DNA from: an uncultured Pedosphaera sp.
GTDB taxonomy: Bacteria > Verrucomicrobiota > Verrucomicrobiia > Limisphaerales > Pedosphaeraceae
Assembly (NCBI GenBank): GCA_903918755.1
Contig: CAIXFN010000014.1
Location: forward strand, 248,001-312,000
Direction: 5' to 3'
DNA: 64,000 nucleotides
In this document: positions 6,441-59,314 of the stretch, piece after piece
Layout of the letters: each line of letters begins with the position of its first letter
Numbering within the stretch: position 1 is the stretch's first letter
The notes under the pieces: model-generated
Told to the model about the DNA's origin: nothing
Databases searched by the model: none
What the model saw: only the letters and a program-made list of their open reading frames with translations
Translations under genes and position numbers: made by a program

Positions 6441-7183
6441 GTGGCGGTGATTTTGGGCTGTTGGACGGCAAAATTGCCCCGCTGCGCTTAGATCCCGCGC
6501 GATACCAGTTGGTCTCCTTTGATTGTTACGGGACTTTGATTGATTGGGAGGCGGGGATTTTGGGGGCCTGGCAGCCGATTTTGCGGGGGCACGGATGCGA
6601 CTGGGAGGAGCGGGAAATTCTGGCGCAGTATGCCGCCTTGGAGTCGGCGATCCAGCGCGAGCCCTACCGGATTTATCGCGAGGTTCTGCGGGAGGTCACG
6701 CGCCGTCTGGCCGCGTTGGTGGGTTTTGTCCCCACGCCGGAGGAACTGGATTGTCTCCCGGATTCGCTGCCGCAATGGCGGCCGTTTTCGGATACCGTCA
6801 TGGCGCTTCAGAAACTGCGGTACCGTTATCCCCTCGCCATTTTATCGAACATCGATGATGACCTGTTCTCCGGTACCGCGAAGCAGCTCGGGGTGGAGTT
6901 TGATTTTGTCCTCACCGCGCAGCAACTGGGATCCTACAAGCCGGCGGCGCGGAATTTCGCGGCGTTGATCCGCCGGGCGGGGATTGCGCCAGCCAACATT
7001 CTGCATGTGGCGGAAAGCCGGTTCCATGACATCACCCCGGCCCGGGCGCTGGGGCTGACGACGGTCTGGGTGCCGCGGCAGAACCAAGCCACCATCAGTC
7101 TTTCGCCGGTTTCCGCGAGCGAGGTCCCGCCGGATTTCGCGATGCCCGATTTGGCGTCTTTGGTCGCCGGGCTGGGGCTTTGA
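6437..7183 (+). CDS. HAD-superfamily hydrolase, haloacid dehalogenase type II-like
   Basis: A 248-residue HAD hydrolase. The nucleophile motif is FDCYGTLIDWE with Asp29. Tyr at the +2 position is typical of the L-2-haloacid dehalogenase type rather than of phosphatases. Motif II is LSNIDDD and the catalytic Lys lies in SYKPAARNF. The conserved later acidic block is HVAESRFHDITPA. The GTG start overlaps the previous stop (GTGA), so the two genes are probably translated together. Its last 89 bases overlap the end of mutY on the opposite strand. The true substrate cannot be told from sequence. Confidence 0.85.
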   Translation: MSGGDFGLLDGKIAPLRLDPARYQLVSFDCYGTLIDWEAGILGAWQPILRGHGCDWEEREILAQYAALESAIQREPYRIYREVLREVTRRLAALVGFVPTPEELDCLPDSLPQWRPFSDTVMALQKLRYRYPLAILSNIDDDLFSGTAKQLGVEFDFVLTAQQLGSYKPAARNFAALIRRAGIAPANILHVAESRFHDITPARALGLTTVWVPRQNQATISLSPVSASEVPPDFAMPDLASLVAGLGL

Positions 7184-8291
7184 GTTTGGCCTGACAAAGG
7201 GCCGCATAAATCTTTCGATGCGCACCGGGAAAGGGGAGTTCGTCCAACTCGGCAAGGTTGTGCCATTCGCCGGCGAAACCGGGTGGGGCAGGGGAAGTCA
7301 AATTGATTTGGTAGGCCTCCAGCGTCATCCGGAACCGGGTGATGGAGTGTTTGATCGTGCAGAGCCGTTGGGCGGCGGGCAAATCCACGCCAAAAACCGC
7401 TCGTGTCGCGGCGGCGGAGGTCGGAGGGCGGCTGGTAATGACAAACTCGGCATTGGGAAACTCCCAGAGTTGGGCATTCACCACGTCTGCCGGGCGTTGC
7501 CGAACCAAATAACGCCCCTGGTGCTCAAGCGCAAAGGCCACAAAATGCCGGGCGGTCACCTGAGCGCGGGCGGGCAGATTGGGTAATTCCGCCACCCGGT
7601 CCTCCCGTCGGGCCACGCAATCCTCACGCACAGGACAAACGCCGCACTGCGGTTGTTTGGGAGTGCAAACCAGGGCGCCCAATTCCATGAGCGATTGGTT
7701 AAAACTGGAGGCGGCGCGCGGGGCGATCTCCAGTGAGGTACGGGCGGCCGCGGTCACCAGTTCGGTCGCCAGTCCCCACAGTCGGTCATTCGCGGCGCGG
7801 TCGCGGGGATTTTCACCAATGCCAAACTGTCGGGTCAGCACCCGAATCACGTTGCCGTCCAAAATGGGGCGGGGTTCATTGAAGGCGATACTGGCGATTG
7901 CCCCGGCGGTGTAACGGCCGATCCCAGGAAGTTCCAGCATGGCCGCAAAGTCGTGGGGAAAGACACCCCGGTGGTCGCGCTGGATCAGAATGGCGGCTTT
8001 TTGCAGATTACGTACCCGCGAGTAATAGCCAAGCCCCTCCCAGAGTTTGTGCAGGGTTTCCGATTCCGCCTGGGCGAGGTGTTCGAGGGTGGGCAATTGA
8101 CGCATCCAACGCACCCAGTAAGGGATCACCGTCTTGACCTGGGTTTGTTGCAGCATAATCTCTGACACCCAGACCGCGTACGGGTCCGCGGTTCTGCGCC
8201 AGGGCAGATCCCGGGCGTGAGCGGAAAACCACTCCAGCAGCGCTTTTGCGATGGTCGAGATCTTTTCGGCGGCTGTTTTTGATTGTTTCAC
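7095..8291 (-). CDS. mutY: A/G-specific adenine glycosylase MutY
   Basis: A 398-residue DNA repair enzyme that removes adenine mispaired with 8-oxoguanine. The catalytic Glu44 lies in SEIMLQQTQV, and the helix-hairpin-helix LPGIGRYTAGAIASIAF is followed by the catalytic Asp in PILDGNVIRV. The 4Fe-4S ligands follow the C-X6-C-X2-C-X5-C pattern (CTPKQPQCGVCPVREDC). A NUDIX-like 8-oxoG recognition domain covers roughly 245-370. The last 30 or so residues are basic, Pro/Arg-rich and low in complexity. They are encoded in the stretch that overlaps the convergent HAD gene, so the tail may be read-through rather than functional. Otherwise family-typical. Confidence 0.96.
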   Translation of the reverse strand: MKQSKTAAEKISTIAKALLEWFSAHARDLPWRRTADPYAVWVSEIMLQQTQVKTVIPYWVRWMRQLPTLEHLAQAESETLHKLWEGLGYYSRVRNLQKAAILIQRDHRGVFPHDFAAMLELPGIGRYTAGAIASIAFNEPRPILDGNVIRVLTRQFGIGENPRDRAANDRLWGLATELVTAAARTSLEIAPRAASSFNQSLMELGALVCTPKQPQCGVCPVREDCVARREDRVAELPNLPARAQVTARHFVAFALEHQGRYLVRQRPADVVNAQLWEFPNAEFVITSRPPTSAAATRAVFGVDLPAAQRLCTIKHSITRFRMTLEAYQINLTSPAPPGFAGEWHNLAELDELPFPGAHRKIYAALCQAKLKAPARRPKTPNRASRNPAGPRSRKPAKD

Positions 8292-8478: not shown

Positions 8479-9189
8479 TCAGTAATCCAGTTTCATCGGC
8501 AGCTGATGCTCCACTGAAAGCTGGGCATGGTGCAGAAAGTTTGCCAATCCAAATTGTGCCGATTCTTCAAATGGGTCTTCAGGTCCGGCGCCATCAAATT
8601 TCCATCTTGCCAACGTCTCAGCGTCCGCTCCGTAGGTCTCAGTGTTGAGTTGGCGCAACTGTTCGAGCAGAGTGACTGAGGAACCGAATTGAATCTCGCT
8701 ACCGGTGGGGTCAGCAGCGATAAAAGTAAACGGAAAAGAGCAAGGAAGCCACACCTCCACTCCGAAGATTTGGAAGAATCGGCAGCGAAATTCCTGAGCC
8801 GCCAAGCTTTGATATGCCGCATCCCTGTCAAAATGTGCTGTCGCCCGCTTTGGTCGGGGATACTCCGGCAAAGCAGTGTGTGCCGCGAGCAGGACGAGGC
8901 CTGCGTAACCCACCCAATCCGGTTTGTCCGTAAAATAATCCGCTTGTGCCCGTTCATCCCAAGAAAGTCCCCCTGGCAAGGCTGAGCCGAGGCCTGTCTC
9001 CAACGAATTTCGCCAAGCATCAACGGCCTGCGAAATCACCGCGGGGTCAATTATTTTGTCAGGTGGGTCAGGATTGCTGCGGATGACCTCGAATCCCATG
9101 CCTTGTTCGCGTGCTGCCCGTGCCACTACAGTTTCCCAATCGCCACTATAGTAACGTGTCAAAGAGCCTACATAAACATCCAGACCCAT
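8479..9189 (-). CDS. Hypothetical protein, MGLDVYVG family
   Basis: A 236-residue protein from the ATG at 9189. The frame stays open upstream for 59 codons but that stretch does not look like protein. It opens with MGLDVYVGSLTRYYSGDW, an N-terminus I have seen in scattered bacterial hypothetical proteins. I do not recognise a catalytic motif or a membrane segment. It is rich in aromatic residues and looks soluble. The gene and its flanks appear lower in GC than the neighbours and use more mixed codons. It stands alone between mutY and rnhC, with gaps of about 185 bases on each side. Function unknown. Confidence 0.65.
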   Translation of the reverse strand: MGLDVYVGSLTRYYSGDWETVVARAAREQGMGFEVIRSNPDPPDKIIDPAVISQAVDAWRNSLETGLGSALPGGLSWDERAQADYFTDKPDWVGYAGLVLLAAHTALPEYPRPKRATAHFDRDAAYQSLAAQEFRCRFFQIFGVEVWLPCSFPFTFIAADPTGSEIQFGSSVTLLEQLRQLNTETYGADAETLARWKFDGAGPEDPFEESAQFGLANFLHHAQLSVEHQLPMKLDY

Positions 9190-50441: not shown

Positions 50442-50624
50442 ACTGCCATTTGAATCTGTACCGCTGGCACCCGGGCCGGTCCGGGCCGATTTGCTTTTTC
50501 CCCGGTTCGCACTCGCATTCTGTTGTTGGTACGAGTCCTGCTGTAGCGTCACTTTGGCAGGGAAACCCGGTTTCCGGTCGTCGTCGACCATCTGCGTGGT
50601 CGACCCGTCCTTGAAAATAGGCCT

Positions 50625-50670: not shown

Positions 50671-52095
50671 ATGGGCACAGATCAATTAATCAGCAATCCA
50701 GTGGGCGGCGCCGAAAGCGGCCGTCGCAAGCCCGTTCGCATCCTTGTGGCGGACGACGATGAGTCGATTCGCCGTCTGCTCGAATACAGCCTGCGTAGTG
50801 CCGGTTACGACCCGGTGGTGGCGCGTCACGGCGGGGAAGCCATCGCCTTGTCCGGGCGGGAATTCGCTTGTGCCCTGATCGACCTCAAGATGCCCGAAGC
50901 GGATGGTTTAACGGTATTGCGCCAACTCAAGGCCCAGCATCCCGATCTGCCCGTCATCATCATTTCCGCCGTAGGCCAGATTCGGGAGGCCGTCTCCGCG
51001 GTGAAGCAGGGGGCTTTTGAATTCATTGCCAAACCCTTCGAATTGGAGGAGTTGCTCGCCGTGGTGAGTTCCGCCCTCCAGTTGGGCCGCGCCCTCCGCG
51101 AGAATCGTGAGTTGCGGGAAGCCGTCTCCGTGCCCGCTCCCGATGAAAGTTTCGTCGGCATTTCTCCGGCCGCTGAAAGACTCCGCCAGACCGTGCGAAC
51201 CATCGGCCCGCGGGATTCCACGGTGCTCCTGACCGGCGAAAGCGGCGTCGGCAAGAGTTTGCTGGCGCGCATGATTCACCGGGCCAGCCTACGGGCCGGC
51301 AAGCCGTTCGTGACCACCAGTTGCCCCGCGTTGCCGAGCGAATTGCTGGAATCGGAAATGTTCGGGCATGAGCGCGGGGCTTTCACCGGGGCCGTGAACC
51401 GCCGCATCGGCCGTTTTGAAATGGCCAGCGGGGGCACCCTTTTTCTGGACGAGATCGCCGAGTTGCCGCTCGCGCTTCAGGCCAAATTGTTGAATGTATT
51501 GCATGACCGGCAGTTTCATCGCGTGGGGGGCTCGGAACTGCAGACGGCCGACATCCGCCTGGTGGCGGCGACCAATGCCGATCTGGCCGAAAAAGTGGAC
51601 CGGAAGGAATTTCGTGCCGATCTCTACTACCGGATCAATGTCATCCCCCTCGTCATCCCTCCTTTGCGCGAGCGCATCGAGGATTTGCCTTTGCTGGCCG
51701 AGCAAGTCCTGGCTAAGGGAGCTGCGGCCGAAGGGCGTGAACCCCTGCGCCTGAGCCCAGGTGCCTTGGACGCCATGTCTCATTACTCCTGGCCCGGGAA
51801 CATTCGGGAACTCCAAAATGTGCTGGAGCGCGCTTCCGCATTCTGTGGCGGTTCCCAGATTCGTCCGGAGGACCTGCCCGAGGAAATCAACCGTACGCCC
51901 CGCACCGTCGTCCATCCAGACCCCAAGCATCCCGTGGTCCCCCAATTGGGCGGTTGGGCGCTGGAAGATGTGGAGCGATTGTGCTTGGAGCAAACGTTGG
52001 TCCTTTGCGGCGGCAATAAGGTTGCTGCCGCCCGGTCCCTGGGCGTAACGGAGAAAACCGTTTACAATAAGATCGCCCGGTTGGGACTGCGCTGA
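50671..52095 (+). CDS. NtrC-family sigma-54-dependent response regulator
   Basis: 474 residues. The receiver domain (about 22-138) has RILVADDDES, phospho-Asp71 in ALIDLKMPE and the Lys in FIAKPF. The AAA+ domain has Walker A GESGVGKS (189-196), the sigma-54 contact loop GAFTGA (236-241) and Walker B GGTLFLDEIAE. The Fis-type helix-turn-helix lies at the C-terminus (NKVAAARSLGVTEKTVYNKI). It is a full enhancer-binding activator. The adjacent histidine kinase gene and its sigma-54 promoter 180 bases downstream suggest that it activates its own partner. Confidence 0.95.
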   Translation: MGTDQLISNPVGGAESGRRKPVRILVADDDESIRRLLEYSLRSAGYDPVVARHGGEAIALSGREFACALIDLKMPEADGLTVLRQLKAQHPDLPVIIISAVGQIREAVSAVKQGAFEFIAKPFELEELLAVVSSALQLGRALRENRELREAVSVPAPDESFVGISPAAERLRQTVRTIGPRDSTVLLTGESGVGKSLLARMIHRASLRAGKPFVTTSCPALPSELLESEMFGHERGAFTGAVNRRIGRFEMASGGTLFLDEIAELPLALQAKLLNVLHDRQFHRVGGSELQTADIRLVAATNADLAEKVDRKEFRADLYYRINVIPLVIPPLRERIEDLPLLAEQVLAKGAAAEGREPLRLSPGALDAMSHYSWPGNIRELQNVLERASAFCGGSQIRPEDLPEEINRTPRTVVHPDPKHPVVPQLGGWALEDVERLCLEQTLVLCGGNKVAAARSLGVTEKTVYNKIARLGLR

Positions 52096-52271: not shown

Positions 52272-52288
52272 TTGGCATTTCAACTGCT
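52272..52288 (+). promoter_or_regulatory. Sigma-54 promoter upstream of HNOBA kinase 1
   Basis: TTGGCATTTCAACTGCT has the required GG and GC ten bases apart and matches the YTGGCACG-N4-TTGCW consensus well. It is 245 bases before the kinase ATG at 52533 and directly after an NtrC-type activator gene. Confidence 0.6.
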
Positions 52289-52426
52289 CATGGTGGCGCC
52301 AATGCTGCCGGAAATTTGGTGAATTGATAAAATCATGAGCAAATTAATTAGGCACTTAGGGATGGGATTGAAAAAATTACACCCCTGTTTATCCCTGCAT
52401 GATATTTTTTTTAGCCTCTTCGCCGG

Positions 52427-52532: not shown

Positions 52533-54620
52533 ATGATGAACGCTGGATTGGGCATTTCCGCATCGCAAAGTGACTGGGCTTTTCCGGTGGTTCATCCGCT
52601 TTCTCCGGCTGAGATTGCGTCGATCTTTCCTTTTTATCTGGGATTCGACGCGGCCGGTCGAATCGCCCATTTCGGTGGCAAAGTCCCGGAAATCTGTCCC
52701 GGCTTGCGCAGCGGCGAGTTGCTTTCGGCCCGTTTCGAGTTTCTCCGTCCCAAGGTCGACTTCACCCCGGCCAGTTTTGCGTCACTCGCACGGTTGCCGG
52801 GTGAGTTTGTCCTCTTGCGTTGTCGCTTCTCGGGCCGGCTGCTGCGGGGCCAGGTCTTGGTCCGCTCGGGCGGCCAGGATTTTCTGTTTCTGGGTACGCC
52901 TTGTCCCATCCCCAACTATGTGGCGGCAGGCTTCGACCACGGGCTCGTGGACCCCATGGCGGTTGCTTCCCACCCGATGGGGACCGTGAGCGATAGCGAG
53001 GCACTGCCCGCAATTCATGCCTTGCAGGCTGGGATGGAGGGGCTCCGGAGGTTAAACGAAGATCTTTACCGGAAAAACGTGGAACTGCGCGAGGCCAATC
53101 GGGAATTACAGGAACGCCACGCGGCACTTCAGCAGCAGGAAGCCCACATTCGCCTGATGAGCCTCGTTGCTTCCCACACCGAGCATGGAATCGTGATCAC
53201 TGATGTCGCGGGCCGGACGCTTTGGATCAACGCCGGCTTCACTCAATTAACGGAATACTCCCTCGCGGAACTCCTCGGGCGCACTCCCGGTTCGGTCCTG
53301 CAGGGACCCGCGTCTGACCCCGAGGTTGTTGCCTACATTCGAGGGCGGATGCACGAGTGCCTGCCCTTTCAGGCCGAGTTGATCAATTACACGAAATCTG
53401 GGCGGACTTACTGGGTCAGTTTGGAGGTTCAACCGGTTTATGATTCCCACGGTACGGTCACGAATTTTTTGGCCATCGAACGGGATATCAGTGAGCGCAA
53501 ACGCATTGAGGCCGAACTCACTTCTCAGCGGGAGTTGCTCCTGGCCACTCTATCCAGCATGCTGGATGGCATCATTGTTGTGGATGAACAAATGCGCATC
53601 CGCCTCGTCAATCCCGCCGCGGCAAGAATCACCGGCTGGGAGCCAACGGCGGCCGCCGGCCGCCTGTTGAGTGAGATCTTCACCCAAATCAGTGAGCCCG
53701 GCATCCCTGGGAATCCGCCCGAAACTCCCCCGCAATGGATGACCACCGCCTTCTCCCGCGGGGCGGTGGCCGGCGATCCGGCTTCCTTGCCGGAAAGCGT
53801 GCTCCTCCGCACGGCGAAAGGGGAGTGTTACTCGGTGGCGGCCAGCGCCGTGCCGCTGCTCGGTAAAGCGGGTGAAATCAGCGGCGGTCTGCTGGTCTTG
53901 CGCGACGTCTCGGCCGGCATGGAATTGGAACAAATGCGGGAGGATCTCGTGCAGGCCGTTTCCCACGAACTCCGCACCCCTCTGACATCCATTCTCGGTT
54001 TCCTCCCGGCGTTGCTCGAAGACCAGGAACTTTCCCGGGGTAAACAACTGGAATTCCTTAACATCATTAACCTGCAGGCCACCCGGATTCGCCATTTGGT
54101 TGAAAACATCCTCGAAATCTCCCGGGTGGAGTCCCGCAACTCAACCTTTGTGGACGTTCCCCTCGATTTGCGGCAGGTGGCGCAGGCCAGTTTGCAGGAA
54201 GTGCAATCTCAGGCGGGCGCCAAGTCGGTGCAAATTTTGCTGGATTTGCCCGCTACTCCCCTGGGATTTTGCGGCGACGCCGTGGAACTTCAGTCCGTGA
54301 TCACCAATCTGCTGACGAATGCCATCAAATTCACCCCCGCCCGGGGGACCGTGGATCTGCAACTCCGGCAAGGGAACGGTGAATTCACCATTGTCGTCCA
54401 GGATACCGGCACGGGGATTCCCCCGGAGGCTTTGGACCATATCTTTGAAAAATTCTACCGGGTCCGCCAACCGGGATCCCAAGTTCCGGGAACCGGTCTC
54501 GGTCTGGCGATCGTGCGGCGCATCGTCCAGCATTATCACGGCCACATTGAAGTGGAAAGCGCCCCCGGGGCCGGTGCTTGCTTCCGGATTTATCTGCCTT
54601 CCTCCACGACGCGTGGTTGA
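52533..54620 (+). CDS. HNOBA-like sensor histidine kinase 1 (HNOBA-PAS-PAS-HisKA-HATPase)
   Basis: 695 residues, no membrane segment. Residues 25-150 resemble the HNOBA domain of guanylate cyclases: FPFYLGFDAAGRI, FEFLRPKVDFTPASF, RLLRGQVLV, DFLFLGTPC, then a Gly-Leu block. A coiled coil (about 165-205) follows, as in the cyclases. Two PAS domains (about 208-325 and 330-450) come next. HisKA has His478 in SHELRTPLTS. The HATPase has NLLTNAIKFT, DTGTGIPP and GTGLGLAIV. It lies downstream of the NtrC-type regulator and is its likely partner. It is paralogous to the kinase at 56597-58702. No haem-NO (H-NOX) gene is in the window. Confidence 0.9.
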   Translation: MMNAGLGISASQSDWAFPVVHPLSPAEIASIFPFYLGFDAAGRIAHFGGKVPEICPGLRSGELLSARFEFLRPKVDFTPASFASLARLPGEFVLLRCRFSGRLLRGQVLVRSGGQDFLFLGTPCPIPNYVAAGFDHGLVDPMAVASHPMGTVSDSEALPAIHALQAGMEGLRRLNEDLYRKNVELREANRELQERHAALQQQEAHIRLMSLVASHTEHGIVITDVAGRTLWINAGFTQLTEYSLAELLGRTPGSVLQGPASDPEVVAYIRGRMHECLPFQAELINYTKSGRTYWVSLEVQPVYDSHGTVTNFLAIERDISERKRIEAELTSQRELLLATLSSMLDGIIVVDEQMRIRLVNPAAARITGWEPTAAAGRLLSEIFTQISEPGIPGNPPETPPQWMTTAFSRGAVAGDPASLPESVLLRTAKGECYSVAASAVPLLGKAGEISGGLLVLRDVSAGMELEQMREDLVQAVSHELRTPLTSILGFLPALLEDQELSRGKQLEFLNIINLQATRIRHLVENILEISRVESRNSTFVDVPLDLRQVAQASLQEVQSQAGAKSVQILLDLPATPLGFCGDAVELQSVITNLLTNAIKFTPARGTVDLQLRQGNGEFTIVVQDTGTGIPPEALDHIFEKFYRVRQPGSQVPGTGLGLAIVRRIVQHYHGHIEVESAPGAGACFRIYLPSSTTRG

Positions 54621-54672: not shown

Positions 54673-56706
54673 TCAAGGCACCACCAGGTAGGCATTGCCC
54701 CAATCACAGTCGGTGTTCGACGTCGGTCCCTGAAATGCCGCACTCATCACCTCCAGCGTCAGGACCTGGCCGCCCCAGACTGGGAGGTCGATAACCTGGG
54801 TGGCCGAGCCCTTGCCCAACATGCCGGAATCGTATTGCAGAATGCCATCCACCCAGACCCAGAAAACGGTGTGGGATCGGTCTGTCACCAGGTCATCAAT
54901 CCCGATTTCCGCATGGAACGTGCTGGCTAGTCCGCCCAGGGCGAACTGGAGCCAGCCGTTGGCCATCATCCCGATGCCTTTTTCATAATGCCGGGCGTTG
55001 ATCGACATGGGCTGCTGGCCCGTTGCCCGATCCCGCGCTGGCCACCAATCCCCGGCGTGTTGAAAGAGAATGGCTGATCCGTTCGTCCATCCCGCGAGGT
55101 AACCCAGGTCGGAAAGATAATTTGTTCCGCGGGACAGGAAGGGCGGAGCCCCCGCCGTGATCGTCACCAACTGGCAATCCTGGGGGCCCAAAGTCACCGA
55201 ATAACTGTCCGTAAAATTGCCCACGTTCGCATGTTGAAACAAATCCCGCACCAGCGCCGGGCGGTTGGAAAGTCCGATGGCGCTCCAGGGCACGGTGATG
55301 GTCTGCGAACTGTTGGTGCTGCGGTTCAGGCAGCACACGGCCTTCACATCGCCCGTCCGCGTTCCCAGGGGTTTGCACCAAACCTGGCCCAGTCCGCTCG
55401 CATTTGCCGCCACCAGGGTCCCCTGGATTCCTGCCGCGTCCTGGTGCACGGCGATTACTTCTGAATTGGTCAGGTAATAGAGCGCCGTCAAGGGGAGTCC
55501 TTGCAAGGGCGGGATGCCGCTCCACATCAGGTTGCAGGCCAGAACGGAAAACATCGCCATCTCGGGCTTCGCGAATCCCCCGGGCCAGTAACTGGGATCC
55601 GCCGCGTCCGGATCATTCCAATGTCCCGGTCCCACCGTGTCCGCATATTGCGCTATGTAGTCAATATGTTGGAGCAATATCTCCCAACCACTATAGTGGA
55701 TGCCGGCGATGCTCACCCCCCCGGGGAGCAGGTCGGTCAGGCGATTTACCCCGCCGTTGCCCCGCCAGGAGCTGGTCTCGGCCGGAATCCAGGGCTCGAA
55801 ATCACCATAACTCGGTGCGAAAAACAACGCCCTTCCTGTTGCCCGGAACGCATTGCCAAACAGCTCGAAATCGATGCGCGAGTCCCCATCAAATTTTACA
55901 TAGTCCACCCCCCATTTGGCGTAGGTTAATCCGTCCTGGGCCAGGTGGCCCCCGGAGCCGATGAAACCATGATAGTTGGTGGCCGATCCTGTGTACAAAC
56001 CGAGCTTCAAACCCCGCGCGTGCAGATAATCCGCCAGATAGGCCATGCCATGCGGAAAATTGGTGCTGATGACGGGGGTTCCGTCCGCGTTCCGATCATT
56101 GGCGGTCCAACCCTGGTCGAGGACCACATATTGGTAGCCCGCTGCCCGCATGCCATTGGTGGCCATGGCATCCGCGATCGCCAGGATCAGACTTTCGCTA
56201 ATCGAGGCGCCATTGCCGATCCAGGAATTGTAGCCCAACGCCGGCGTCCGGGCCGGCGCCGCATAGGCTCCGGCGGGTGGGGGATGTTCATATTCATTGG
56301 TCCCGTTTGCGCGAAACATCATCGGCTTTCGCCGATTGACGTTCACAATGAACGCGTCCTGCCCGGGCGCCCCGGTCGCCACGGGATAAAATACTGGGGG
56401 AAAAACTGCGGCGCTTGATTCGATCCGGTACGTCCAATCCGGCTTGCTGCCTTGCAACCGCAAAACCATCTGGTTCGTTCCGGGTACGCGTGCCGTTTGG
56501 AGGGTAAGTTGGGCTTCCGCACCCCAGCCCAATAGGAGAATCCCCGCCAGCCAGCCCCGCAGAGCCAGACGCCGCAGCGCTTTCTGGACGAACGATTCAG
56601 CTCCCCTGGACCGTGCCGACGGAGTCCCGGACCGGGTTTCTGCGTGGCAGAATGACCCGGAAGCACGATCCCTGATCAACGATGCTTTCGACTTCAATGC
56701 GGCCAT
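54673..56706 (-). CDS. Secreted GH27-type alpha-galactosidase-like protein with NPCBM-like domain
   Basis: About 677 residues if the ATG at 56706 is used. That start, like TTG at 56679, lies inside the preceding kinase gene. After the kinase stop no ATG, GTG or TTG precedes the signal peptide (hydrophobic run ending GWGAEA), although an AGGGGAG lies at the kinase stop. The barrel has TPALGYNSWIGNG, VVLDQGWTANDRN, the nucleophile Asp in DYVKFDGD (near 55888) and GPGHWNDPDAAD. At the GH27 acid/base position (WRxxxD) the sequence is WRGNGG, so that Asp seems to be missing. The C-terminal 150 residues look like an NPCBM sugar-binding domain. It would be co-transcribed with sensor kinase 2. Confidence 0.8.
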   Translation of the reverse strand: MAALKSKASLIRDRASGSFCHAETRSGTPSARSRGAESFVQKALRRLALRGWLAGILLLGWGAEAQLTLQTARVPGTNQMVLRLQGSKPDWTYRIESSAAVFPPVFYPVATGAPGQDAFIVNVNRRKPMMFRANGTNEYEHPPPAGAYAAPARTPALGYNSWIGNGASISESLILAIADAMATNGMRAAGYQYVVLDQGWTANDRNADGTPVISTNFPHGMAYLADYLHARGLKLGLYTGSATNYHGFIGSGGHLAQDGLTYAKWGVDYVKFDGDSRIDFELFGNAFRATGRALFFAPSYGDFEPWIPAETSSWRGNGGVNRLTDLLPGGVSIAGIHYSGWEILLQHIDYIAQYADTVGPGHWNDPDAADPSYWPGGFAKPEMAMFSVLACNLMWSGIPPLQGLPLTALYYLTNSEVIAVHQDAAGIQGTLVAANASGLGQVWCKPLGTRTGDVKAVCCLNRSTNSSQTITVPWSAIGLSNRPALVRDLFQHANVGNFTDSYSVTLGPQDCQLVTITAGAPPFLSRGTNYLSDLGYLAGWTNGSAILFQHAGDWWPARDRATGQQPMSINARHYEKGIGMMANGWLQFALGGLASTFHAEIGIDDLVTDRSHTVFWVWVDGILQYDSGMLGKGSATQVIDLPVWGGQVLTLEVMSAAFQGPTSNTDCDWGNAYLVVP

Positions 56707-58702
56707 TATAATGCCGGACGATCCGCTGCACAATCGCCAGTCCCAACCCGGTGCCCGGAATCTGGGTTCCCGGCCGGGCCACCCGATAGAAGCGTTCAAA
56801 GATGTGTTCCCGCGCTTCTGGTGGAATCCCGAGCCCGTTATCCTTCACCAGCAGAAATACTTTGGTTCCCGTCTGCTCCACCCGAAATTCCACCCGGCCG
56901 GCCTCCCGGCTGAATTTGATGGCGTTGGAAAGCAGGTTTGTGGCTACCGATTGCAGCCGCTCCGCGTCGCCAAAGAAGGGCAGGGCCGTTTCCGGCAGGC
57001 AAAATTGGACTTCGATCTTTCGTTCCTCGGCCAGTGATTTGACTTCCATCAGGCTGGCTTCCGCTACCTGTCGCAAATCCAATGGCTGATCGTCATAATT
57101 CGCCCCGCCGGACTCCACGCGTGAAATTTCCAGGATATCCTTCACCAAATTGTGCAGCCGTGTGGCCTGCTTTTCGACGATTCCGAGAAATTCCTTCCGC
57201 AATGCCAGCGGCATCTCCGGCGCCTGGCGCAAATTGGCTATGAATCCGGTGATGGAGGTGAGCGGGGTGTTCAGTTCATGCGATACCGCATGCACAAAGT
57301 CCTCCCGCATTTGCTCGATCTCGGCGAGTGAGGAAACATCCCGGAACACCAGTAATCCTCCCATGACCTCGCCCGAGGCCCCCGTCATGGGAACCGCACT
57401 CGCGGAAACGGTCATCCGCCGGCCATTGACGGTCTGGATGACCACGCTATCCGCCAGGCTGGGTCGCCCGCCATCAGCCCGGTCCGTCAGGGCCGTAGCC
57501 AGCCATTCCTCCTGCGTACTGACCAGGCCGCCCTCCGGATAAGTTACTCCCGCCACTGTAAACACCTCGTTGACTTGCCGGCCCCGGGCGTCATCCCGGT
57601 GCCAGCCGGTGGCTTTTTCGGCCGCCGGGTTCAGCAGGCACACTCGCTGGGCCTCGTCCATCACAATGACGCCTTCCAGCATGCTGTTCAGGATGGTCCC
57701 AAGCAACTCCCGTTCCGCGCGCAAAGCCGCTTCTGTCGCCATTTGGGCGGTGATATCGGCCCCCACCATCAGGAAATTGCTCGCCTTGCCGGTCGTGTCC
57801 AACACCGGTTGGGATTCCAACCGCAACCAGAACGGTTTACCCGACCGGTGTTGCAGCAGTAGTTCCAGCTTCACCGCCTGCCCGGCGCTCACGGCGCGGC
57901 GGATTTCTTCCAGGCTTTCCCGACTGGAATCCGCTCCCCGGCAGAGTTCCCCGGGAAAGCAACCCTGCGCTTCCGCAGTAGAATATCCGGTGATCCGTGT
58001 GAAACTTTCGTTTACCCAGAGGATGCGGCCTTCCCGGTCGGTGATGATCATGGCGTTGTTGGTGCGGGTAGCCACCAATCTGAGCAGGTTGTTGATGGAT
58101 TCATCCGGCTCCGTGATGTTTGGGCAGGGGTGAATGGTCAATGCGGGTTGCGCTGATTCCGGATTGTCCCGGGGCGGTTCGGCCACCCGCCGATCCGGGC
58201 TTTCACCGGGTCCGGGACGGTCTGGCGCTCCGGCCTGCCGGCTTTTCAAGTTCAGAAACAGCCGGACTCCGGCGACACTTACCGCGAGATCATCCAATTT
58301 CAATCCGGCGTTTAGCATGGCAGTTAGATCGTTGAACCAAGGTGACCCGACAAAAAGAAATTGCTCCCCCCCGGGCATGGCGAGGAATTCCCCGTGTAGC
58401 AGAATACGGGTACTGCGGCAGCGCAGCAGGCAAAGCTGGCTCTGATTCAGATTGTCCCACCAGGCTGCGGGGCTCAAACTGACCTTCGGAGTTTCCAACT
58501 CAAATAGGCTTGCGATGGCTATTCCTACCCTCGCTCCCGGACATATTTTTACCAGTCGCCGGCCGTGCTGCAGTAGTTGGCCCGCCCGATTCAAAAGCAA
58601 ATGAAAGGGAAAGCAATCCACCAGTTCGGCGGCCGCATCGCTGGTATTCGCGAATGTCAGCGCCCTCCCGGGGTAATCCGCCATGCTGTTTTGACCTTCC
58701 AT
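56597..58702 (-). CDS. HNOBA-like sensor histidine kinase 2
   Basis: 701 residues from the ATG at 58702, which has a good Shine-Dalgarno sequence (GGGAAGG, 6 bases away); the frame is open 65 codons upstream. The N-terminal region repeats the HNOBA pattern in weaker form: FPFHLLLNRAGQL, FELETPKVSLSPAAW, RILLHGEFL, QFLFVGSPW. Two PAS domains follow, then HisKA with His475 in SHELNTPLTS (Asn where the first kinase has Arg), and an HATPase with NLLSNAIKFS and GTGLGLAIV. Clearly a paralogue of the kinase at 52533. Its 3' end overlaps the GH27-type gene, so sensor and enzyme share an mRNA. No receiver gene is next to it. Confidence 0.88.
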   Translation of the reverse strand: MEGQNSMADYPGRALTFANTSDAAAELVDCFPFHLLLNRAGQLLQHGRRLVKICPGARVGIAIASLFELETPKVSLSPAAWWDNLNQSQLCLLRCRSTRILLHGEFLAMPGGEQFLFVGSPWFNDLTAMLNAGLKLDDLAVSVAGVRLFLNLKSRQAGAPDRPGPGESPDRRVAEPPRDNPESAQPALTIHPCPNITEPDESINNLLRLVATRTNNAMIITDREGRILWVNESFTRITGYSTAEAQGCFPGELCRGADSSRESLEEIRRAVSAGQAVKLELLLQHRSGKPFWLRLESQPVLDTTGKASNFLMVGADITAQMATEAALRAERELLGTILNSMLEGVIVMDEAQRVCLLNPAAEKATGWHRDDARGRQVNEVFTVAGVTYPEGGLVSTQEEWLATALTDRADGGRPSLADSVVIQTVNGRRMTVSASAVPMTGASGEVMGGLLVFRDVSSLAEIEQMREDFVHAVSHELNTPLTSITGFIANLRQAPEMPLALRKEFLGIVEKQATRLHNLVKDILEISRVESGGANYDDQPLDLRQVAEASLMEVKSLAEERKIEVQFCLPETALPFFGDAERLQSVATNLLSNAIKFSREAGRVEFRVEQTGTKVFLLVKDNGLGIPPEAREHIFERFYRVARPGTQIPGTGLGLAIVQRIVRHYNGRIEVESIVDQGSCFRVILPRRNPVRDSVGTVQGS

Positions 58703-59314
58703 TTTTAGCCTTCCCGCCTGCTTACTCACTGCTTGCTGCGCATGGGCACCCGCCCATTCACGGCCGCATCCTGTATTCAGTACTGGTTCGCTGATTCGCA
58801 CATTTCTTCCGTTATCTGCAACGGACTTCAAGCAGGAGCCATGCCAGCCCATGGAGCTGACAGGATTGCGAAGAACGACAAAGACCGCTTTCGGCACGTC
58901 AAATTCTCCACACCCTGCGTCCCGGCTGCACCCAACCCCGCTCAGCTAGGAGCCCGATAAAGCTCCAGGTAACCCCATTGTTTTCGCTTGATTTGGCCAG
59001 AATTCCAAATTACAAGCTCCGAAAACTAGCATGACCCTCCGGCTCTGACAAGCCTGCTCCATACCTGAAAGCTCCCCCGAAGGTGCAAAAAAAGCTGTTG
59101 CCGGTAATGCCGGACTATAAAATAAATGGCACCCGGGTGATTCTTCAGTGCGCCCGCGTGCCGCCGCAGCCTGGGGCTCGCGGGGTTCCGTGCCCCGGCT
59201 ATTTCTTGGGAATCTATAAGCCCATACCCGTGCCGGCATTGATCCCCATCAGCCCAAATCGCGCCTCCCTGATGCCGTCCAGTTAGCGGGCGTTCCTCGC
59301 CTTCCCGCCGGATA
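58703..59314 (-). other. Spacer between ankyrin gene and kinase 2
   Basis: 612 bases with no convincing gene on either strand. It holds the sigma-54 promoter at 58831-58847 and, about 100 bases further upstream, an imperfect inverted repeat GGAGC...GCTCC (around 58951). The rest shows nothing I can interpret. Confidence 0.5.
58831..58847 (-). promoter_or_regulatory. Sigma-54 promoter upstream of HNOBA kinase 2
   Basis: On the minus strand: CTGGCATGGCTCCTGCT. GG and GC are ten bases apart and only two consensus positions differ. They are the same two deviations (CAT, CTGC) as in the promoter before kinase 1. The kinase start lies about 130 bases downstream. Confidence 0.65.

Follow-up and report, generated by a model that had tools for sequence, protein, structure and literature searches.

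The nearest experimentally tested case to the locus described here is Nla28S/Nla28 of Myxococcus xanthus, an autoregulated operon with a mutation-tested sigma-54 promoter, TGGAGCG-N4-CTGCT (PMC9765219). Like our locus, it combines a histidine kinase with an NtrC-type activator and has a -12 element of the form CTGCT. However, it is one operon with one promoter, whereas here each kinase has a predicted site of its own and the regulator gene has a third. Autoregulation has also been described for ZraSR of enterobacteria (PMC12316311), an NtrC-type, sigma-54-dependent two-component system capable of switching on its own operon. ZraS/ZraR senses zinc and other heavy metals, whereas the kinases here have HNOBA and PAS domains. 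PrsK/PrsR of PEP-CTERM systems is likewise a kinase/NtrC-type pair linked to sigma-54 sites, with PrsK described as a transmembrane kinase (PMC1569441). In the genome studied here, an EpsH exosortase gene is likewise preceded by sigma-54 sites, but no membrane domain is among the Pfam domains of our kinases, and a PEP-CTERM PrsR identity for the regulator was rejected, as its TIGR02915 score of 376.4 falls below the curated cut-off of 502.6. Finally, H-NOX-associated histidine kinases share with ours an N-terminal HNOBA-PAS region, in one order-wide family, but the kinases here have no adjacent H-NOX gene and no receiver or Hpt domain, and are linked to an NtrC-type activator instead. A full-text literature search combining Verrucomicrobia, sigma-54, and enhancer-binding proteins returned nothing.

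We analyzed a stretch of 64,000 nucleotides ("the window") from the genome of an uncultured Pedosphaera sp. The relevant features of the window are as follows.

50526 to 50542, + strand: weaker sigma-54-like site, TTGGTACGAGTCCTGCT, 128 nt before the regulator gene (score 13.1, shuffle p = 0.0047)
50671 to 52095, + strand: NtrC-type response regulator, from Pfam matches (REC, sigma-54 AAA+, Fis-type HTH) and motif positions
52272 to 52288, + strand: predicted sigma-54 promoter of kinase 1 (site 1), TTGGCATTTCAACTGCT, of the form TTGGCAT-N5-CTGCT
52533 to 54620, + strand: kinase 1, with an HNOBA-like N-terminus (weak Pfam match), PAS, PAS, HisKA, and HATPase_c, without a receiver domain
54673 to 56520, - strand: gene for a Melibiase/NPCBM glycosidase, next after kinase 2 in the direction of transcription, with an approximate start
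56597 to 58702, - strand: kinase 2, with HNOBA, PAS, PAS, HisKA, and HATPase_c
58831 to 58847, - strand: predicted sigma-54 promoter of kinase 2 (site 2), CTGGCATGGCTCCTGCT, of the form CTGGCAT-N5-CTGCT

The two kinases are 43.6% identical, and the glycosidase gene is probably co-transcribed with kinase 2. A preliminary description had reported the two 17-mers upstream of the kinases in the right direction, and their coordinates, strands, and orientation all hold. Both sites are in non-coding DNA and directed at their kinase, site 1 at a distance of 244 nt from the kinase 1 start (ATG 52533). Site 2 falls within an over-long GTG open reading frame (56597–58897), but this frame has no coding potential before ~58,700, and ATG 58702 is preceded by a well-spaced GGGAAGG; therefore, we take this ATG as the likely start of kinase 2, with site 2 lying 128 nt before it. 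The shared form had been given as YTGGCAT-N6-CTGCT. The half-sites are indeed common to both, but the spacer is N5, which yields GG-N10-GC, the spacing of sigma-54 -24/-12 elements. Using a matrix with approximate weights, hand-set around the published consensus TGGCACG-N4-TTGC(A/T) (PMC9765219, PMC4641369), sites 1 and 2 score 15.0 and 14.6. Both differ from the consensus in having T instead of C at -21 and C instead of T at -15. Transcripts are predicted to start near 52299 and near 58820, which would give kinase 1 a long leader of ~234 nt. An Rfam search of both kinase leaders matched no RNA element, and a small leader open reading frame considered before kinase 1 was dropped, as the frame examined was not open.

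We consider it probable, at roughly 0.8, that sites 1 and 2 are functional sigma-54 (-24/-12) promoters. RNA polymerase carrying sigma-54 would read them as such and drive two paralogous HNOBA-PAS-PAS histidine kinases. The kinases may in turn phosphorylate the adjacent regulator, which would then bind upstream and convert closed complexes of sigma-54 polymerase into open ones at both kinase promoters, and probably at its own promoter as well. The outcome would be a two-component circuit with positive feedback, its single activator receiving input from two sensors. A lineage with a thin literature would thereby gain a concrete example of a self-regulating sigma-54 circuit that can be tested.

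The genome has both the sigma factor and the activators that sigma-54 promoters call for. There is one rpoN gene (C102:7262) encoding a full protein with an intact RpoN box (ARRTVAKYR), and there are 18 high-scoring sigma-54 activator domains. The regulator at 50671–52095 has the REC, AAA+, and Fis-type HTH architecture of an NtrC-type activator (bEBP) and all of the catalytic motifs, namely GESGVGKS (Walker A), the GAFTGA loop, GGTLFLDE (Walker B), and RADLYYR (arginine finger). Pfam and GAFTGA bear out the earlier statement that the paralogous genes lie next to an NtrC-type activator.

The weaker site before the regulator gene was absent from the preliminary description, and it has counterparts elsewhere. 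In a relative of the same genus (G001), a near-perfect site, CTGGCACGATTGTTGCT, lies 89 nt upstream of a regulator homologue that is 68% identical to the window regulator (L045:2248-2264) and whose stop overlaps the start of an HNOBA kinase. A second homologue in this genome, on contig C102, is 66% identical to the window regulator; a poor site lies 135 nt before it, and an HNOBA kinase follows after ~100 nt. All three homologous regulators are therefore preceded by sites (scores of 19.7 in G001, 13.1 in the window, and 11.0 at C102). Given the recurrence of regulator-kinase adjacency and of sites at the C102 and G001 loci, the autoregulated regulator-kinase unit looks like the ancestral arrangement. 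The gap between the regulator and kinase 1 is unusually long, at 437 nt, and seems to contain a separate promoter for this kinase. Kinases 1 and 2 have no clear orthologue in G001, so the strong G001 site backs the regulator gene and not these two kinases directly.

We infer the identity of the activator, because no common dyad was found and the genome has 17 other candidate activators. We give about even odds to activation of the kinase promoters by the neighboring regulator. It is possible, but rather doubtful, that these are real sigma-54 promoters opened by another activator, in a cascade and not by feedback from the adjacent regulator. The 18 activator domains leave room for such a cascade, and a search for an activator-binding dyad common to five related upstream regions, including those of the kinase and regulator sites, gave none that was convincing. 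However, the regulator adjoins kinase 1, this adjacency recurs at C102 and G001, and sites stand in front of all three homologous regulators.

A chance origin of the matches, with the kinases transcribed from ordinary housekeeping promoters or via read-through, is unlikely, although several numbers taken alone would allow it. The exact pattern YTGGCAT-N5-CTGCT occurs at two places in the 7.19 Mb genome, sites 1 and 2 only, and base composition predicts 1.7 occurrences per genome. The count by itself is thus unremarkable, and it is the positions that are telling; the earlier view that such a pair is unlikely by chance stands for location but not for number. Compared with dinucleotide shuffles, the best same-strand sigma-54 score gave p = 0.0037 upstream of kinase 1 and p = 0.008 upstream of kinase 2. 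These values are modest, and the pair had been spotted post hoc. Their product is ~3e-5 before allowing for selection, and both matches have the correct strand and spacing upstream of their kinase. Furthermore, no sigma-70-like promoter was found in the upstream region of either kinase.

The preliminary description had proposed scanning the whole genome, with equal frequency in coding DNA counting against promoter function. We searched all 7.19 Mb with the generalized pattern YTGGCAY-N5-YTGCT and obtained 20 matches, 17 of them intergenic. In start-refined gene calls, 13/20 have a same-strand start no more than 400 nt downstream, versus 0/16 when the spacer is altered by one base (N4, n = 10; N6, n = 6; Fisher p = 5e-5). 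The counting rule was automatic and conservative: the L100 site, at most 110 nt from an open reading frame start in first-pass calls, went uncounted after start refinement and was left out of the refined count. We also scanned a 450 kb sample with the matrix at a threshold of ≥14.6, the score of the weaker of the two kinase sites. Per 100 kb, there were 22.95 hits in the 300-nt regions preceding genes and 0.85 in coding sequence, a 27-fold enrichment that argues against chance, although occasional high scorers do occur in coding DNA. The matches thus concentrate upstream, and equal frequency in coding DNA was not seen. The site set takes in expected sigma-54 targets, including two P-II genes and rtcB, divergent from rtcR. 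A P-II gene site, TTGGCACTACCCCTGCT, and the rtcB site beside rtcR, CTGGCACACCGGCTGCT, have the same -12 form, CTGCT, as both kinase sites. The spacer-change control over a whole genome is a simple, transferable test of sigma-54 sites for uncultured genomes.

It is highly improbable, and largely refuted, that YTGGCAT-N5-CTGCT is a private motif of the circuit whose shared departures mark a distinct form of polymerase or an additional regulator: exact matches do occur at only two places in the genome, but of 14 sites (the 13 upstream sites plus L100), 6 have T at -21, 6 have C at -15, and 2 have both, versus 2.6 expected if independent. TGGCAT also occurs at other upstream sites in the genome. 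The identical departures that the preliminary description had offered as evidence therefore add nothing, since each is common in this genome and the two combine at the independent rate. The case for sigma-54 promoters before the kinases rests on position and spacing.

An autoregulated sigma-54 circuit is a familiar kind of find; the added interest here is that the kinases belong to a family that normally adjoins an H-NOX gene, which is missing at this locus. HNOBA is a domain associated with H-NOX heme (gas) sensors. PF07701 (HNOBA) is above its cut-off of 23.4 in kinase 2 (55.2), the C102 kinase (48.8), and a kinase at C13 (81.0), while kinase 1 is just under at 22.0, yet alignable. Scanning the contigs of the genome with kinase 1 retrieved generic kinase domains only. 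An alignment search of 320 genomes showed that the HNOBA kinase family is widespread in the order. Among the 28 best loci outside the genus (L113-L140), an H-NOX gene, recognized by a motif test, adjoins the HNOBA-PAS kinase in 26, and one of the two loci lacking it is a short contig stretch. Kinase 2, and less clearly kinase 1, has the HNOBA half of an H-NOX/HNOBA signaling pair, but no adjacent H-NOX gene was found for either at the locus, nor for the C102 kinase or the G001 C17 kinase. This genome has a single H-NOX gene, located at C13 next to a hybrid kinase with HNOBA.

In a tree of HNOBA regions, the activator-linked kinases have branches of 1.6–2.5 versus a median of 0.45. A single origin of these kinases cannot be trusted, because the branches are very long. 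Kinases 1 and 2 evolve much faster than HNOBA-PAS kinases elsewhere in the order. We tentatively suggest that kinases 1 and 2, as members of the H-NOX-partner kinases, parted from the gas sensor and were rewired, as they have no receiver, diverge fast, and come with an NtrC-type activator and candidate sigma-54 feedback. They might take input in trans from the sole remaining H-NOX protein. The locus would then show a kinase branch that has seemingly exchanged its H-NOX partner for an NtrC-type output, and a change of both sensor and output inside one kinase family could be traced across one bacterial order. In another genome of the order (G123, L136:1-903), an NtrC-type activator gene precedes H-NOX and HNOBA hybrid kinase genes; the activator shares 43% identity with the window regulator in an alignment of 220 residues. 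This gene order is possibly an intermediate arrangement.

Several other sigma-54-like sites were observed. The EpsH exosortase gene (Pfam match; L095) has a site upstream in this genome, as does an EpsH look-alike in G001 (L167/L168), at distances of 82–124 nt across both species, which suggests sigma-54 control of PEP-CTERM sorting in the lineage. Divergent histidine kinase and receiver genes (L103/L104, G000:C72:16009-16226) each have a sigma-54-like site in their common intergenic region, and an activator domain is encoded nearby at C72:13634. A DnaK (Hsp70) gene (L110), which would be an unusual target for sigma-54, has the candidate site TTGGCACCGACGTTGCT at most 90 nt before it. Within the window, the high-scoring sigma-54-like TTGGCAAACTTTCTGCA (8531–8547, - strand) lies 240 nt before a gene at 7095–8291 that is MutY-like by eye.
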